Shown here: positions 36,034 to 44,057 of the stretch, one piece after another
Numbering within the stretch: position 1 is the first letter of the stretch
How the letters are laid out: every line of letters starts with the position of its first letter
Assembly: GCF_013346935.1 (NCBI RefSeq)
Contig: NZ_JAAEEB010000002.1
Span: 186,001-250,000 of the forward strand
DNA length: 64,000 bases
Source of the DNA: Lactobacillus melliventris
GTDB lineage: Bacteria > Bacillota > Bacilli > Lactobacillales > Lactobacillaceae
Direction of reading: 5' to 3'
Program-made: the position numbers and the translations under genes
Notes under the pieces: generated by a model
Seen by the model: the letters and a program-made list of their open reading frames with translations, nothing else
Databases searched by the model: none
What the model was told of the DNA's origin: nothing

Positions 36034-36065
36034 GCCACTTAGTTTCTTAAAATTGCCACTTAGTT
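36034..36065 (+). promoter_or_regulatory. Paired direct repeats, probable LytTR binding site (autoregulation)
   Basis: Two identical 11-mers GCCACTTAGTT (36034-36044 and 36055-36065), start-to-start 21 bp or two helical turns, as LytTR-type regulators require. A -10-like TAGATT (36074-36079) lies 18 bases after the CC of the second copy. They are about 72 bases before the LytTR gene. Confidence 0.65.
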
Positions 36066-36136
36066 AAAAAGGCTAGATTTTATATTAAAATTAGCGTTTA
36101 ATAAAATCATCAAGTGATGAAGGGCAGGTGAGAAGC

Positions 36137-36598
36137 GTGAAAATAAAAATAGAGCTGGATCCGGATATGGATAATGATGAAACTAGTGTAACTATCCGTG
36201 CTAAAGCTGTGACACCAGAAGTTGAACAAATTTACCGTCAACTTCAAGGTATCAACAGCCACCCTGATCAAATTGAATGTAAAAAAGATAACGTGTCCTA
36301 TTACTTGAGTATGAACGAAATTTTATTTTTTGAAACAGAAGATAAACAAGTGATTGCTCATACTGCGAGGGATGCTTTTACAGTAGATTACAAACTCTAT
36401 GAATTAGAAAATTTATTAAACAATCAATTCATGCGGGTCTCTAAGTCAACAATTTTAAATTTAAATCAAATTTATGCGTTAACACGCTCGATTTCTAACT
36501 GTAAAATTAATTTTCGCGATTCTTATAAAACTGTCTATGTTTCACGTCATTACTACCATAACTTAAATGATAGGTTAAACGAGAGAAGGTCATCATAA
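36137..36598 (+). CDS. LytTR-domain transcriptional regulator
   Basis: Stand-alone LytTR DNA-binding protein without a receiver domain. Residues 1-45 are a short acidic N-terminal region; the LytTR domain spans about 48-150, with YYLSMNEILFFETEDKQVIAHT, the ELENLLNNQFMRVSKSTILNL core and a terminal YVSRHYYHNLNDRL. 153 residues from GTG 36137; an upstream in-frame GTG at 36128 would overlap the AGGTGAGA ribosome site. The stop codon overlaps the next start, so it is coupled to the LiaF-like membrane protein. This resembles LytTR-plus-membrane-inhibitor systems (LRS) of streptococci. Confidence 0.87.
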   Translation: MKIKIELDPDMDNDETSVTIRAKAVTPEVEQIYRQLQGINSHPDQIECKKDNVSYYLSMNEILFFETEDKQVIAHTARDAFTVDYKLYELENLLNNQFMRVSKSTILNLNQIYALTRSISNCKINFRDSYKTVYVSRHYYHNLNDRLNERRSS

Positions 36599-37413
36599 TG
36601 AGAAAAAATAAAATTAGAGAAATATTTTGGGGGATAGCATTAGTGGCTGCTGCTATTTTCTTGGTAATGAACCAGCTGCACCTGTTTTCTTTCCATTTGA
36701 AAGTAAGCATGATTATTTGGACTATTGTGTTTGGAGCGGCTTTAATTGAAAGTCTAGCAGATAGAAGCTTGTTTGGTACGACTTTTTCTATTGCTTTTCT
36801 CTTAATTGTTTACGCTGAACCATTGCATATTACCAAAATTGTTCCATGGACAGTATTGATTGCTGCATTGTTGATTTATATAGGTTTGACATTAATTTTT
36901 AGAAAAAGCTGGTTTTTAGGAGGAAACTACTTTAAACATAAATTTAGTCCTAGAGATTACTATGATGATTGGTCAGACTTTGATAAAAGTTATAAAACGA
37001 CTGATAATAATACCATTAATGACAGTAAAGACTATACAACTGATAGCAGTTCCATTAATGATAGTAAAAACTATACTGCTGGTGAAGATATAGTAATCAA
37101 TCAGAAGCTGTCATCAGTTTCACGCTACGTTCATTCACAAAATTTACGTAGTGTCATGATTAATTCTTCATTAGGTGAAGTTGAAGTCTACCTTGATCAG
37201 GCTAAGGCTGCTGGCGATGTAGTGACAGTAGATATTAACGGTACCATGGGTGAAATTGAAATTTATGTGCCACTTTCATGGAAAGTTAATAGTGAAAACT
37301 TAGATCTTGTTTTGGGAGAACTGGAAATTTCTGGTGAATCTAGTGGCGATGGTCCCACATTGGTTTTGACCGGCCACTGCAGTATGTCTGAAGTTGAAAT
37401 TAATTATGTATAA
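36598..37413 (+). CDS. LiaF-like membrane protein (probable partner of the LytTR regulator)
   Basis: Four N-terminal membrane segments (about 8-26, 33-50, 58-73, 80-99), a polar linker with a repeat (INDSKDYTTDSS / INDSKNYTAGED, about 139-166), and a C-terminal beta-rich domain like that of LiaF/DUF2154 (SLGEVEVYLDQA, GTMGEIEIYVP, LVLGELEISG). 271 residues. LiaF-type proteins sense envelope stress and restrain their regulator. The ATAATG overlap with the LytTR gene suggests direct partnership. The linker repeat appears to be an internal duplication. Confidence 0.82.
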   Translation: MRKNKIREIFWGIALVAAAIFLVMNQLHLFSFHLKVSMIIWTIVFGAALIESLADRSLFGTTFSIAFLLIVYAEPLHITKIVPWTVLIAALLIYIGLTLIFRKSWFLGGNYFKHKFSPRDYYDDWSDFDKSYKTTDNNTINDSKDYTTDSSSINDSKNYTAGEDIVINQKLSSVSRYVHSQNLRSVMINSSLGEVEVYLDQAKAAGDVVTVDINGTMGEIEIYVPLSWKVNSENLDLVLGELEISGESSGDGPTLVLTGHCSMSEVEINYV

Positions 37414-37420
37414 AAATAAA

Positions 37421-37549
37421 ATAGTTGCTTTAAAGCAGCTACATGATTATGTCAAAGAAAACTATAAAGATGCTGAAAAAGCATATTAAAAATGGTTTGA
37501 AACCAATGACTATACCTATCATGTTTATAAAAAAGTTCTCTCGGTGATT
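37421..37549 (+). pseudogene. Dead copy of the 111-residue small protein gene (cut by an IS end)
   Basis: Reads V-ALKQLHDYVKENYKDAEKAY, then in-frame TAA, then KWFETNDYTYHVYKKVLSVI, clearly homologous to codons 2-51 of the intact gene at 39.28 kb. The start codon is ATA, the middle has a stop, part of the AGNYKE stretch is deleted, and homology ends exactly where the IS3 remnant begins (37550). Confidence 0.82.
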
Positions 37550-37712
37550 TGATGTGAACAATAAAATTAGGACATTTTATTAGTTAATAACTGAGGACTA
37601 ACTGCCGTTATTCAATCGGAGTTAGTCCTTTTAGTTTGGTCTTGATTCTTTGCGGGTTGTGATACTCAATGTAGTCTTTGATTGTTTTTTCCAGCTCAGT
37701 GAGATTTTTAGT
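37550..37712 (-). mobile_element. Decayed 3' end of an IS3-family element, same family as at 3.9 kb
   Basis: On the minus strand this reads NLTELEKTIKDYIEYHNPQRIKTKLKGLTPIE, then a stop where the intact sequence has Tyr, followed by RQLVLSY. The outer end (TGATGTGAACA...AATTAGGACA, from 37550) matches that of the remnant at 3.87-4.12 kb. Only about 35 transposase codons remain. Confidence 0.8.
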
Positions 37713-37723
37713 GTCTAAAAATG

Positions 37724-37754
37724 ACCACTTGGTCTTTTAAAACTACCTCTTAGT
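37724..37754 (+). promoter_or_regulatory. Paired direct repeats, probable LytTR binding site before the MFS gene
   Basis: ACCACTTGGT (37724-37733) and ACCTCTTAGT (37745-37754), again 21 bp start-to-start, related to the repeats at 36.03 kb. A -10-like TATATT (37764-37769) sits 18 bases after the CC of the second copy, the same distance as in the first site. This puts the MFS gene in the LytTR regulon (inference). Confidence 0.6.
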
Positions 37755-37904
37755 ATATAAACATATATTTTAAAGCAAAATTATGATTAGATTAAAACTA
37801 AATAGTAATAAAAAGCTTTTAGAACAAAAAGAAGTCTTATTGTTTCTATGAAATGAGGTCATTTTAGCAAAAATTAGCTTAAATATAAATGAAGGGGTAA
37901 AAAT

Positions 37905-39092
37905 ATGTTAAATAAAAAAGCTTATCTAGCTTCACGACTGGCGTGTGGCCTAGGCAACTCACTGTATGGCATGGTATTTATTTGGTGGCTTCAAAATCAG
38001 ACAAAAAGTTCATCAATAGTTGGTATTTGTAATGCAATATTCTCGGTTACAGCTGCATTGTCTATCTTTTATGGGCCTATAATTGATAGGCAGTCTTATA
38101 AAAAAGTTAGTATTTATTCTATGCTCATCCAAGTAATTTTATTATTTGGGTTAACATACGTTATACTTTTTTCTCCATATAATTATTTACTGGCAATTGT
38201 AATAGCAAGTGTACTTTCAATTTGTGATGAATTTTTTAGTCCAGCTGATCGTGCAATTTTAAGTGAAGCAATTTTAAATGAAGATGAAATGACAAAAATA
38301 ATCTCTAAAGTTAATATTGTTGATCAATTGGTTAATGTTGGAGGAACAGCACTTTCTGGAGCACTGCTTGTATTTTTGTTAAGTGGACAAATAATGCTGG
38401 TCTGTTCTTTCCTTAGTTTAATAGGATTAATTTTTTTAAATATTGCTTTAAGAAAAATTCCTGATAGTGCCAATAATTTATCAAACAAGAAGAGTCAAAA
38501 AGGGTCTGTTGTAGCTTCATATGTATATAGCATAACTAGTGGATATCAATATATCAGAAAAAACAAGTTCTTAAGGCGCTACTTATGGGCTGGAGTTTTA
38601 TATTCGTTTGCTCAGCCAGCGCTAATGTTAGTGCTGCCTCGTGTTGCTCAAGAAGCCGGTAATGCTTCATTATATGGTACGTTTTATATTATGATCTTAC
38701 TGGGGATAATTTTGGGAGCCATGATTGCTGGCAAAATGAAAGCAAAAATCAAAACTATTGGTTTAGCCTGGCTTTTAAGCTCTATTCCAATAGGGCTAAT
38801 GTTGCTTTTTAAATCAAATCTAATTGCTTTTTGTATTTTGCTCTTCCTGTTTGGACCAGTAACGAGTATTCATAACGTTCTGGCAGAATCAATTATTCAA
38901 ACTACTACACCAGATGATTACTTGGCCAGAGTTTTCACGACCATAAGAACAACTGCATATATTGGTGGGCCAATTTCTTCTGTTTTAGCGGGTTTATTAC
39001 TTGATCATACAGGGTCTGAAGTAATTATATTGATCAGTTCACTTCTGATATTAATTGGTGGGATTAATATCTTACTCATAAAAGATGCATAA
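37905..39092 (+). CDS. MFS transporter (drug-efflux type), putative LytTR target
   Basis: Major facilitator protein of 395 residues with about eleven or twelve hydrophobic segments. It resembles the macrolide-efflux-like MFS group (ASRLACGLGNSLYGMVFIWWL at the N-terminus, LSICDEFFSPADRAILSEAI in the first half, GPVTSIHNVLAESIIQ in the second). GAAGGGG ribosome site. The 150-base leader holds the paired repeats above. Export of a toxic or signalling compound under LytTR/LiaF control is the simplest reading, not shown. Confidence 0.8.
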   Translation: MLNKKAYLASRLACGLGNSLYGMVFIWWLQNQTKSSSIVGICNAIFSVTAALSIFYGPIIDRQSYKKVSIYSMLIQVILLFGLTYVILFSPYNYLLAIVIASVLSICDEFFSPADRAILSEAILNEDEMTKIISKVNIVDQLVNVGGTALSGALLVFLLSGQIMLVCSFLSLIGLIFLNIALRKIPDSANNLSNKKSQKGSVVASYVYSITSGYQYIRKNKFLRRYLWAGVLYSFAQPALMLVLPRVAQEAGNASLYGTFYIMILLGIILGAMIAGKMKAKIKTIGLAWLLSSIPIGLMLLFKSNLIAFCILLFLFGPVTSIHNVLAESIIQTTTPDDYLARVFTTIRTTAYIGGPISSVLAGLLLDHTGSEVIILISSLLILIGGINILLIKDA

Positions 39093-39171
39093 TATTAAAT
39101 CTCCGCTAATGATGTCTTCTGTACTAAGCATTTCAATAAATTTAGGAAAAAATATAATAGTAAAATAGCAT

Positions 39172-39262
39172 TTATCATCAGTTTCGTGCTACGTCATTCA
39201 CATAATTTACGCAGTATAACAATTAATTATTTTTTGAATGAAGTTGGAACTTATTATCTTTA
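39172..39262 (+). pseudogene. Dead fragment of a second liaF-like gene
   Basis: Base-by-base similarity to 37109-37195 of the intact liaF-like gene (the SSVSRYVHSQNLRSVMIN region), with a one-base deletion and many substitutions. No reading frame remains. It lies directly before the intact small gene, as the living liaF lies before the dead copy. Confidence 0.75.
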
Positions 39263-39277
39263 ATTTAGGAGGAAAAA

Positions 39278-39613
39278 ATGGTTACTTTAAAACAATTACA
39301 TGATTATGTCAAAAAAAATTATGAGGCCGGAAACTATAAAGAAGCTGAAAAAGCATATAAAAAATGGCGTGATACCAATGATTATACCTATCATGCAGCA
39401 AAAAATGCTGTGAAAAAGAGTTCTCTCAGTGATTATCAAATGGGTTGTGAACAAGCCAAAAAGGACTATGCAGAGAGTCATTCTTTCAAGGCTTTTCCTA
39501 AAAAAGGTGTTAACTTAGTTAATCGTGTTACCCAGAATAAAGCAGTTGAAATAGAACGCTACATTGACGGCTACAATGATGCCAAGGCCAAAATTTTACA
39601 GGCGAAAAAATAA
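39278..39613 (+). CDS. Small protein of unknown function (111 residues)
   Basis: I do not recognise this family. The protein is highly charged (many Lys, Glu, Tyr), without a membrane segment or signal peptide, so cytoplasmic. Two helical segments, YQMGCEQAKKDYAESHSF (about 52-69) and YIDGYNDAKAKIL (about 95-107), look like degenerate copies of one repeat; KEAEKAYKKWRDTNDYTYH has a TPR-like feel. Strong AGGAGGAAAA ribosome site. Its dead paralogue follows the LytTR/liaF operon, tying it to that system. Confidence 0.75.
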   Translation: MVTLKQLHDYVKKNYEAGNYKEAEKAYKKWRDTNDYTYHAAKNAVKKSSLSDYQMGCEQAKKDYAESHSFKAFPKKGVNLVNRVTQNKAVEIERYIDGYNDAKAKILQAKK

Positions 39614-41596: not shown

Positions 41597-42259
41597 CTAG
41601 TCGCTTTTTACCCATGGCGCTGTGAGCATTTGACTAACAGTTTGCTTAATATTATTGCTTTGAGCAATCATTGAGATTACTGCAGCACCAGCTGCCCCAG
41701 TTTTGGAGATTGCTTCTAAGTCGCTAGCAGTTATTCCGCCAATAGCAACAATTAGCCGAGCGCTGCTTTTAACCAGCTGGGTTAAACCAGTAATACCAAT
41801 TTCGGGATCGGCATCACTTTTAGACTGGGTGGCATAAATTGGACCACTACCGTAATAATCGATTCCGCTAATTTTATTGGCTTGCTCAATTTGAGCTAAA
41901 TTCGAACAGGAATAGCCGATAAACATTTGACCACCAACTTCTTTAATAACCTGTTTTATTTCTTCATCACTTTGACCAACATGAACTCCCTCGGCATGAA
42001 CTTGTTGGGCCAACTTGACATCATCATCAATGAAGAAGGGTACATGATATGCTTGACACAGTTGATGTAATTTTTGCGCCATAGGTAGTCTCTCAGTTTT
42101 ACTTAAAGTTGAATTAGGACCCTTGTCCCGAAACTGAAAAGCCGTGATGCCGGCAGCAAGGGCTTCTGCGACTATACCAGGTAGTGTTTTACCTTTGGGC
42201 ACATCTTGACTGCCGCAAATAAAATAAGCATGTAAAAAATCAGTGTTAAATTCTTTCAT
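41597..42259 (-). CDS. thiE: Thiamine-phosphate synthase
   Basis: Joins HMP-PP and THZ-P into thiamine phosphate. TIM barrel with FQFRDKGPN (about 40-48), FFIDDDVKLA, VGQSDEE and YYGSGPIYATQSKSDA, all diphosphate or substrate loops of the family. 220 residues. Last gene of thiM-thiD-thiE; RBS AGGAGA at the end of the spacer after thiD. Confidence 0.93.
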   Translation of the reverse strand: MKEFNTDFLHAYFICGSQDVPKGKTLPGIVAEALAAGITAFQFRDKGPNSTLSKTERLPMAQKLHQLCQAYHVPFFIDDDVKLAQQVHAEGVHVGQSDEEIKQVIKEVGGQMFIGYSCSNLAQIEQANKISGIDYYGSGPIYATQSKSDADPEIGITGLTQLVKSSARLIVAIGGITASDLEAISKTGAAGAAVISMIAQSNNIKQTVSQMLTAPWVKSD

Positions 42260-42272
42260 TATTTCTCCTAAA

Positions 42273-43079
42273 TTACTTTGCCCAATGATTTAAGGGACCA
42301 TGGCCATGACCGACTTGAATAGTTTCCTTAATAGTCTCGGTAACGTATTTCTTAGCAATTGTAATTGCTGCAGGTAAACTTTGACCTAAAGCTAGCTGCG
42401 CCGTAATTGCTGCAGCTAAAGTATCACCGGTGCCGTGAGTCCGTTTAGTATGTACTCTAAAACTGCTGACCCAAAGATCAGTACCATCGGCAAATAAAGC
42501 ATAATCTTTTACTTCTGCGCTATTAGTGTGTCCACCTTTAATTAGTACATTTTTAACACCCATGTCTTGTAGTTTATGGGCTAATTCAGGAAATTGATCT
42601 TGCACTTGCACCTTAATGCCAGTTAAAGCTTCTGCTTCGGGTAAGTTAGGTGTGATTAAATCGGCTAAAGGCAGTAGTTCATTTTTAACCGTGGCAACAG
42701 CATCTTGACTTAAAAGTGGTGCACCTCCTTTAGCAATCATCACGGGATCTATGGTAATAGGGCCAAAGTCATACTTTTGCAGGTTAAGAGCAACTTGGTG
42801 AACATGAGCTGCATCACCTAACATTCCCGTTTTACAAGCACGAATATGAAAATCTTCTGCTAAAGATGCAAATTGGGCATCGATCATTTCTAGTGGTAGT
42901 AAAAAAGATTTTTGTACACCTAAAGTGTTTTGTGCTGTCACTGCTACTACAACAGCTGTTCCAAATACTTTTTGCATTTGAAAAGTTTTAAGGTCAGCCA
43001 TTATTCCGGCACCACCACCTGAATCTGTACCGGCAATAGTTAAAACCTGGGGAAAAGAATTAATTTTTTCTGTCATCAT
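42273..43079 (-). CDS. thiD: Hydroxymethylpyrimidine/phosphomethylpyrimidine kinase
   Basis: Two-step kinase making HMP-PP. Ribokinase fold: TIAGTDSGGGAGIMADLKTF (about 15-34) binds HMP, and THGTGDTLAAAITA carries the catalytic Asp. 268 residues. AAGGAAC ribosome site; two adjacent ATG codons at the start, the first chosen. Eight bases after thiM. Confidence 0.93.
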   Translation of the reverse strand: MMTEKINSFPQVLTIAGTDSGGGAGIMADLKTFQMQKVFGTAVVVAVTAQNTLGVQKSFLLPLEMIDAQFASLAEDFHIRACKTGMLGDAAHVHQVALNLQKYDFGPITIDPVMIAKGGAPLLSQDAVATVKNELLPLADLITPNLPEAEALTGIKVQVQDQFPELAHKLQDMGVKNVLIKGGHTNSAEVKDYALFADGTDLWVSSFRVHTKRTHGTGDTLAAAITAQLALGQSLPAAITIAKKYVTETIKETIQVGHGHGPLNHWAK

Positions 43080-43087
43080 GAAGTTCC

Positions 43088-43876
43088 TTAATCAAAATCA
43101 GCAATTTGCTTAATATCAGCGACTGTTACTTTGTACAAATAATCTATAAGGTACATACCAAAAGTACTTGGTCCAACACCGGGATGATCTTGGACAACCA
43201 TTTGACCCGCACAACTGAAAATTAAAGCACCTATCTGAGCCGCTTCAAACGGATCATCAGTGACTGCGGTAAAAGCTGTGACAATACTGGACAACATATC
43301 ACCTGAGCCCACATGAGTTTTAAAAAGTGGTGAGCCGTTGTGAATATGAGCCAGTCTTTTACCGTCACTAATTGTATCTGTAGGACCACTGGCAATGACC
43401 GTACAATGATATTTCTGAGCAGTTTTCATAGCAATATCATCAATATTACCGGAGCCGGAACCTGCATCGATGCCCTTTGAATTCCAGTTGAAGTCACCTA
43501 GTGCAGCGATTTCACCAATATTACCGCGAATAATACTGGTATGAAAATCCCATAAAAGCTTATCTGCGATTTTGTAGCGATATTCGACTGCACCAACCGC
43601 AACAGGATCAAATACTATCGGCTTATTATACTGCCTTGCTAGGTCTTCTACCTTTTTAATATGATTGATTTGCTGCTTGGTTAAACAGCCAATATTAACT
43701 GCCACTGCGGAAGCCATTCGCACTATTTCTTCGGCTTCAGCGACTTCATTGCTCATAATTGGTGAAGCACCAATAGCATTGACAGCATTCGCCACATCTT
43801 GGACTGTCACAAAATTGGCGATGTTAAAAATAACGGGATTTTGCGCTCGTAATTTATCTAATAAGTCTAACTGCAT
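43088..43876 (-). CDS. thiM: Hydroxyethylthiazole kinase
   Basis: Salvage kinase for the thiazole half of thiamine. NIANFVTVQDVANAVNAIGASPIMSN (about 19-44) is the family N-terminal block, and THVGSGDMLSSIVTAF carries the ATP/catalytic site. 262 residues from ATG 43876, with GGGAG before it; the frame runs open into the riboswitch. With no thiC or thiG in view, the operon is a salvage set. Confidence 0.93.
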   Translation of the reverse strand: MQLDLLDKLRAQNPVIFNIANFVTVQDVANAVNAIGASPIMSNEVAEAEEIVRMASAVAVNIGCLTKQQINHIKKVEDLARQYNKPIVFDPVAVGAVEYRYKIADKLLWDFHTSIIRGNIGEIAALGDFNWNSKGIDAGSGSGNIDDIAMKTAQKYHCTVIASGPTDTISDGKRLAHIHNGSPLFKTHVGSGDMLSSIVTAFTAVTDDPFEAAQIGALIFSCAGQMVVQDHPGVGPSTFGMYLIDYLYKVTVADIKQIADFD

Positions 43877-43916
43877 TTTATTACTCCCGACTAAATGTTT
43901 TTGAAAAATTTTGATT

Positions 43917-43957
43917 AATAAAAAAGCCCTGGCACGTGGAAGTGCCAAAGCTTAAGC
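43917..43957 (-). terminator. Expression-platform terminator of the THI-box
   Basis: On the minus strand AGCTTTGGCAC / GTGCCAGGGCT forms a stem with a TTCCAC loop, then TTTTTT. It lies between the aptamer and thiM. Confidence 0.9.
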
Positions 43958-43962
43958 GTTTT

Positions 43963-44048
43963 TGACACGTTCCTACGCAAGTATTAGCTTACAGGTTCAA
44001 AGGGTCTGAAAAAAATTCATCTCAGCCTAAAAGGCACCCCTCGTGTTA
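43963..44048 (-). ncRNA. TPP riboswitch (THI-box)
   Basis: On the minus strand GGGGTGCC, then GGCTGAGATGAA, ACCCTTTGAACCTG and TAATACTTGCGTAGGAACG: all conserved THI-box blocks in order. P1 is closed by AACACG with CGTGTC. Upstream of thiM, so TPP should switch the salvage operon off. Confidence 0.96.
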
Positions 44049-44057
44049 TCGCTTTCA
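44044..44057. promoter_or_regulatory. cre site (CcpA) at the thi transcription start
   Basis: TGTTATCGCTTTCA fits the consensus TGWNANCGNTNWCA at all 14 positions. It abuts the -10 box of the thi promoter and covers the predicted start point, a repressing position. Confidence 0.6.

Follow-up and report, generated by a model that had tools for sequence, protein, structure and literature searches.

To our knowledge, little is known of the targets of LytTR Regulatory Systems (LRSs) outside the control of streptococcal bacteriocins. A stretch of 64,000 nucleotides from Lactobacillus melliventris (contig NZ_JAAEEB010000002.1, positions 186,001 to 250,000; the window, hereafter), which lies on contig C2 of a genome of 2.0 Mb with a completeness rating of 99.9%, carries a gene for a LytTR regulator and, overlapping it, a gene for a LiaF-like membrane protein. 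Which genes does such a pair control? An initial annotation, made from the letters of the window, had pictured a regulator with a membrane inhibitor, autoregulated through direct repeats and acting on a nearby MFS exporter gene. We conclude, with a probability of about 0.8, that the locus is an LRS of the LiaF/DUF2154 (HdrRM-like) type that switches exporter and Toastrack targets. The observations behind this reading are the gene pairing, the conservation of operator and promoter, the association of the sites with a set of targets, and the co-occurrence of sites and regulator.

The LytTR-liaF operon and its operator

The Pfam scan detected the LytTR domain PF04397 (E 4.6e-20) and no receiver domain in the regulator, as the initial annotation had supposed; the protein is thus of the receiver-less soluble kind found in LRSs. 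The AlphaFold model of the regulator had a mean pLDDT of 77. Its sequence is 93-96% identical to the LytTR proteins of Lactobacillus kimbladii, kullabergensis, helsingborgensis, huangpiensis and laiwuensis, which are species of the honey-bee gut; this identity places the window in that group. The overlap with liaF amounts to one base, at 36598, shared by the LytTR stop codon and the liaF start codon. Directly downstream of a LytTR gene, an LRS carries a membrane protein with DUF2154 or DUF3021, and the LiaF-like protein, the presumed inhibitor and sensor of the system, takes this place. It is the sole LiaF-TM match in its own genome (E 2e-14, Pfam), and its model (mean pLDDT 62) showed four long N-terminal helices and a beta-strand C-terminus. 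The C-terminus gave a profile match to 4QRK (E 0.003), which was also the top structural match of the model (probability 1.00, E 0.04), and 4QRK is one of the two structures named as Toastrack examples in the part of the PSP survey used here (PMC11237479). LiaF-TM together with a C-terminal domain is the composition of the LiaF-type protein of LiaFSR systems, the C-terminal model scoring below its cut-off in the window protein. Among 24 aligned LiaF members, LiaF-TM was detected in all and PF09922 (DUF2154, LiaF-like_C of Pfam) at E 0.001 or better in 19. The linker of the window protein contains a 39-bp tandem duplication (36997-37074) with 82% identical copies, and the same long linker is shared by L009 and L012 among the 23 other aligned proteins.

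Both repeat pairs described earlier, at 36034 and 37724, were found at these coordinates with a start-to-start spacing of 21 bp (Table 1). In each site a pair of 9-mers 12 bp apart is followed by 10 bp, a -35-like hexamer, 17 bp and a -10-like hexamer. In published LRS operators (PMC6193735, Table 3), two directly repeated elements of about 9 bp are separated by 11-13 bp and end about 10 bp 5' of the -35 element of the operon; both sites of the window have this layout, with 12 bp and 10 bp, respectively. The repeats had been placed 18 bases before a -10-like box, and here the earlier description needed correction: the conserved TTTAAT starts 32 nt after the second 10-mer, and the element 9 nt after that 10-mer is the -35-like TAGATT. 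A pattern derived from the two sites, searched with as many as 3 mismatches allowed, matched nowhere else in the window, and shuffles gave an expectation of 0.03 matches; this uniqueness is partly by construction, because the pattern was drawn from the same sites. A sigma-70 scan returned none of the conserved promoters.

Conservation was followed in 30 LytTR loci, the window being one of them, which represent the best 30 of the matches in 55 of 61 Lactobacillus genomes. In all 30 loci liaF lies directly 3' of the LytTR gene, with a junction that is an overlap of 1 or 4 bases or a gap of 2 bases, and the operator pair lies 58-67 nt 5' of the start of the LytTR match. The pair scored 15-20 of 20 in 29 loci and 12 in the weak case of L024, versus 10-14 on the reverse strand of the same upstream stretches. 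Column identity was lowest in the upstream flank (0.408), higher in the spacer (0.628) and the half-sites (0.857), and highest in the -35 (0.961) and -10 (0.989) elements; the -10 box reads TTTAAT in 28 loci and TGTAAT in two, and the -35-like element is TAGATT in 25. At E 1e-20, LytTR matches were obtained in 35 of 121 family genomes. A LiaF homologue adjoins LytTR in all 26 family loci read outside the genus, and a repeat pair scoring at least 14 was present in 20 of them, versus none of 26 on the reverse complement. In a collection of named genomes, which overlaps the genus set, a LiaF homologue was found in 47 of 48 LytTR loci and repeats scoring at least 14 in 44, versus 3 of 48 on the reverse complement; the loci with repeats include members of Streptococcus, Lachnospiraceae and Erysipelotrichaceae.

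Predicted unlinked targets of the operator in Lactobacillus

Searched against the L. melliventris genome, the pattern picks out five promoters, those of the LytTR operon, the MFS gene and ABC exporters on contigs C4, C5 and C1. The C4 site heads a row of three adjoining ABC half-transporter genes and has a third half-site. A degenerate third half-site 21 bp 5' of the operator occurs at the MFS gene and also at the exporter promoters L044, L095, L105, L106, L110, L112 and L136, and higher-order binding of LytTR may take place there. One further match, C2:3428 with 2 mismatches, lies inside an open frame.

A slightly loosened pattern gave matches in 53 of the 61 genus genomes. We classified 87 sites by the gene downstream, judged among open reading frames (ORFs) of at least 90 residues; LytTR-gene sites, set apart by coordinate comparison with the LytTR matches, the MFS site of the window and C2:3428 stand outside this number, and L158, a LytTR promoter, was dropped. 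ABC exporters follow 45 of these sites (38 loci) and DUF4097-type Toastrack proteins follow 11, while 28 lie within ORFs and 3 have no ORF of at least 90 residues behind them. The distal ABC and Toastrack loci total 49, besides the LytTR promoters and the MFS gene. The share of sites before ABC or Toastrack genes was 8/8 at 0 mismatches, 17/20 at 1 and 31/59 at 2. DUF4097 matches were obtained for all six Toastrack proteins scanned (L128 and L135 over the first 260 residues only), and the other five of the 11 are near relatives by inspection. With the reversed pattern, none of the 30 sites that came with loci, the only ones read, preceded an ABC or Toastrack gene, and 28 of them lay within ORFs. 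The reversed pattern gave no match with 0 mismatches and five with 1 mismatch; the true pattern gave 18 with 0 mismatches.

Presence of the sites follows presence of the regulator. ABC or Toastrack sites were detected in 29 of 47 LytTR-bearing genomes versus 1 of 14 without LytTR (Fisher p 4.6e-4, kinship ignored), the latter including two genomes with broken copies (G020 and G045) and some incomplete ones. With a matrix trained on LytTR-operon sites only, the upstream regions of 21 of the 30 C4-exporter relatives read reached at least 13.7, and those of the other nine stayed below zero. In seven species, the operator half-sites of the C4 exporter showed an identity of 0.937, versus 0.763 upstream and 0.859 downstream. 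From these patterns in the DNA, the predicted output of the system in the genus is a set of unlinked ABC exporters and Toastrack proteins, not the MFS exporter. The regulator with a membrane inhibitor, the autoregulation and the exporter output of the initial annotation fit the conserved anatomy; the MFS gene as genus output gives way to ABC and Toastrack genes. No printed account of an LRS regulon in lactobacilli was found in open-access PMC among the matches listed.

The exporter promoters could all derive from a single promoter that was duplicated and could owe the motif to this ancestry, outside the control of this LytTR, the LRS itself being autoregulatory only. The MFS and C5 promoters are indeed clearly homologous over about 200 nt (77% identity over 203 columns, E 8e-38), but the C1, C4 and LytTR promoters align mainly in the operator and promoter elements. 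Since the sites also follow the regulator from genome to genome and the C4 half-sites are conserved above their flanks, common descent without control is quite unlikely. The sites might instead be bound by a different LytTR protein, since four LytTR-domain proteins are encoded in the genome: two further ones, on C7 and C4, have DUF3021 partners, and one on C2 is an AgrA-like response regulator. Against this assignment, no such site was found in the 250 nt 5' of the LytTR genes on C7 and C4, the stretches compared (the promoters of the AgrA-like gene and of the operon with the C4 LytTR gene lay outside them), and the best repeat there differs in kind (AACCATT type on C7). In relatives, moreover, this class of site is located at the LiaF-type operon and is found together with the LiaF-partnered LytTR ortholog. 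We regard such an owner as highly improbable.

The two DUF3021-partnered LytTR genes of this genome, also receiver-less, lie at L049:5318-6207 and L050:4210-5051, each beside its DUF3021 gene, and by eye the L050 gene lies behind an apparent ABC ATPase/permease pair.

The system could also be a bacteriocin or competence switch of the kind formed by HdrRM and BrsRM of S. mutans, in which the exporters would secrete peptides. Bacteriocin genes are activated by HdrR and BrsR, according to the part of the LRS literature used here (PMC6193735), and among NCBIfam models the closest to the C1 and C5 exporters is that of GggC, the exporter of streptosactin, although they score far below its cut-off. 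The classified sites, however, lead to exporters and Toastrack proteins, although small peptides could be missed because the look covered ORFs of at least 90 residues. A bacteriocin or competence switch is unlikely on this evidence.

Several points weigh against an LRS with an exporter and Toastrack regulon. No ABC or Toastrack site at up to 2 mismatches was detected in 18 of the 47 LytTR-positive genomes; the distal regulon is therefore variable or was partly missed. One such site is present in the LytTR-negative, fragmented genome G002. At 2 mismatches, 28 of 59 sites lie within ORFs or elsewhere and, as the reversed pattern matched in 44 of 61 genomes versus 53 of 61 for the true one, chance matches are common at this level. 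Nine of 30 relatives of the C4 exporter are without the site, and two of the 21 positive C4-type sites fall below the background maximum of 16.8 (79,758 positions, some of the background regions having been chosen for pattern matches). The genus-wide pattern was loosened after the own-genome matches were known, and the counts are not independent because the genomes are related. As to the membrane protein, PF09922 matched in the window at E 7.8e-6, below its curated cut-off, and none of the fold matches of the LiaF model reached E 0.001.

The MFS gene and its surroundings

The MFS gene and the 111-residue ORF are present as they had been described, and the features of the locus are collected in Table 1.

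Table 1. Features of the LytTR-liaF locus, in window coordinates
Feature	Position	Strand	Remarks
Operator of LytTR-liaF operon	36034..36063	+	GCCACTTAG, 12 bp, GCCACTTAG
Promoter of LytTR-liaF operon	36074..36102	+	-35-like TAGATT 36074-36079, 17 bp, -10 TTTAAT 36097-36102
LytTR regulator	36128..36598	+	GTG start; N-terminal region of ~50 residues, then LytTR domain
LiaF-like membrane protein	36598..37413	+	LiaF-TM of four long N-terminal helices, variable linker, C-terminal Toastrack-like domain
Decayed first copy of 111-residue gene	37415..37570	+	Directly after liaF; internal stops
Transposase remnant	37590..37712	-	Translation reads like a transposase C-terminal end
Degenerate third half-site	37703-37711	+	GATTTTTAG; 21 bp upstream of MFS operator
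MFS promoter and 5' leader	37704..37903	+	Homologous to C5 ABC exporter promoter of the same genome
Operator of MFS gene	37724..37753	+	ACCACTTGG, 12 bp, ACCTCTTAG
Promoter of MFS gene	37764..37792	+	-35-like TATATT, 17 bp, -10-like TTAGAT 37787-37792; placed by analogy with LytTR promoter
MFS exporter gene	37905..39092	+	MFS_1; closest NCBIfam model TIGR00900, with a score under its cut-off
liaF 3'-part remnant	39149..39246	+	Left by duplication
Intact 111-residue protein gene	39278..39613	+	Family unassigned; behind MFS gene here, behind liaF in close relatives

As a conserved output the MFS gene was rejected: the operator was absent at 15 other MFS-homologue loci and at the own-genome paralogue (66% identity), the loci L196, L201 and L203 being weak negatives with short upstream stretches or partial genes. 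Five MFS-homologue matches came without loci, and one of them, the own-genome paralogue, was read. In relatives the repeats are conserved at the LytTR operon; of the MFS loci read, only the one in the window has the site.

The order of genes in the window is liaF, the broken 111-residue copy, the transposase remnant (presumably of IS3 type), the MFS gene with its LRS-type promoter, the liaF fragment and the intact 111-residue gene; the decayed copy and both remnants had escaped the initial annotation. In all six close relatives read, the 111-residue gene directly follows liaF, and behind it come 0.9 kb, then the region of LysR and gap; the 0.9 kb is missing from the window, and in one of the six (G040) the 111-residue gene has an internal stop. 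We read the MFS gene, from this arrangement and from the homology of its promoter with that of the C5 ABC exporter, as a probable local recruit, an acquired pump that captured an LRS promoter. The operator at the MFS gene might also be a passive relic of promoter capture, the exporter having no role in the response. The restriction of the site to this MFS copy and the rearranged state of the locus would agree with a relic, but operator, spacing and promoter-like hexamers are all intact at the MFS gene, and we consider a mere relic unlikely.

The 111-residue protein was found at 86-100% identity in 7 of 61 genus genomes, with three more weak matches, and gave no credible Pfam family and none above cut-off. 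The interval from the MFS gene to the intact 111-residue gene gave no terminator-like element in the scan, so the two may be co-transcribed.

Elsewhere in the window, the Rfam scan detected only a lysine riboswitch (RF00168, 19297-19476, + strand, 87 bits) and a thiamine pyrophosphate (TPP) riboswitch (43953-44051, - strand), both outside the locus; the latter lies upstream of ORFs 41597-43948, which are thiamine-like genes by eye. A tRNA scan of the window found none.

Predicted mechanism and relation to known systems

Three features of the locus together favour the mechanism of HdrRM (PMC6193735, in the part used here): repeats 5' of weak -35 elements, a membrane-protein gene that overlaps the LytTR gene, and a site for autoregulation. 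In the resting state, the LiaF-like membrane protein would hold the LytTR activator inactive, and an envelope disturbance, or possibly an antimicrobial signal, would release it. The freed LytTR would bind direct repeats with the consensus ACCACTTAG-12 bp-ACCACTTAG, 10 bp upstream of weak -35 elements. Once bound, it would raise expression of its own operon, a positive feedback of the kind shown for HdrR (PMC6193735), and would also turn on unlinked targets, which genus-wide would be ABC exporters of about 530 residues and DUF4097 Toastrack proteins. In L. melliventris the targets would comprise the three consecutive C4 half-transporter genes, the C5 and C1 ABC exporters and the recently acquired MFS exporter, and perhaps the 111-residue gene behind it. 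The exporters would presumably protect the cell.

The system belongs to a known kind, and the pairing of LytTR with LiaF, which the initial annotation took as unusual, is not an oddity: HdrM of S. mutans contains DUF2154, the Pfam LiaF-like_C domain (PMC6193735), LytTR operons with LiaF-TM/Toastrack proteins were reported in Firmicutes by the PSP survey (PMC11237479), and nearly all relatives read carry the pair. More than 4600 putative LRS operons have been counted (PMC6193735). HdrRM-type LRSs share with this locus a soluble, receiver-less LytTR regulator encoded 5' of a membrane protein that contains DUF2154, and 9-bp repeats 12 bp apart just 5' of the -35 element, the last distance being 10 bp in most entries of Table 3 of that account (PMC6193735). 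They differ in their distant targets, which are bacteriocin genes there and, by prediction, ABC exporters, Toastrack proteins and one MFS exporter here, and in the additional 111-residue gene of this locus and its closest relatives. The SMU_433/434 and SMU_1070c/1069c LRSs are likewise associated with ABC transporter genes (PMC6193735), but those genes are linked to the LRS operon, whereas here they are unlinked and were recognised by their operators. For the LytTR + LiaI-LiaF-TM/Toastrack operons of Firmicutes (CAL82154.1; PMC11237479), the gene pairing is the same; the part of the survey used here names the pairing alone, without operator or regulon.

LiaFSR and VraTSR resemble the system in their membrane protein with LiaF-TM and Toastrack domains and in the link between Toastrack and envelope defence (PMC11237479, in part). 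Unlike them, this operon is without histidine kinase or response regulator, and LytTR is the DNA-binding partner. Neither a LiaS histidine kinase nor a LiaR response regulator was seen among the ORFs of the 31-45 kb region by inspection, six of them Pfam-scanned, and kinases were not searched elsewhere in the genome or in relatives. A broader idea, tentative and to our minds a little short of an even chance, is that of a kinase-free Lia response: LytTR would have replaced LiaSR behind a LiaF-type inhibitor and would govern a dispersed, fast-changing regulon of exporters and Toastrack proteins, which new drug pumps such as the MFS exporter of the window could join by promoter capture.

What the locus adds to the known kind is an operator-defined exporter/Toastrack regulon and the recent recruitment of an MFS pump. 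The recognisable operator on exporters and Toastrack proteins throughout the genus provides a concrete and testable list of targets, and the regulon so defined ties LRSs to envelope defence of the Lia type. The MFS case suggests how a commensal could place a new pump under an existing stress switch.

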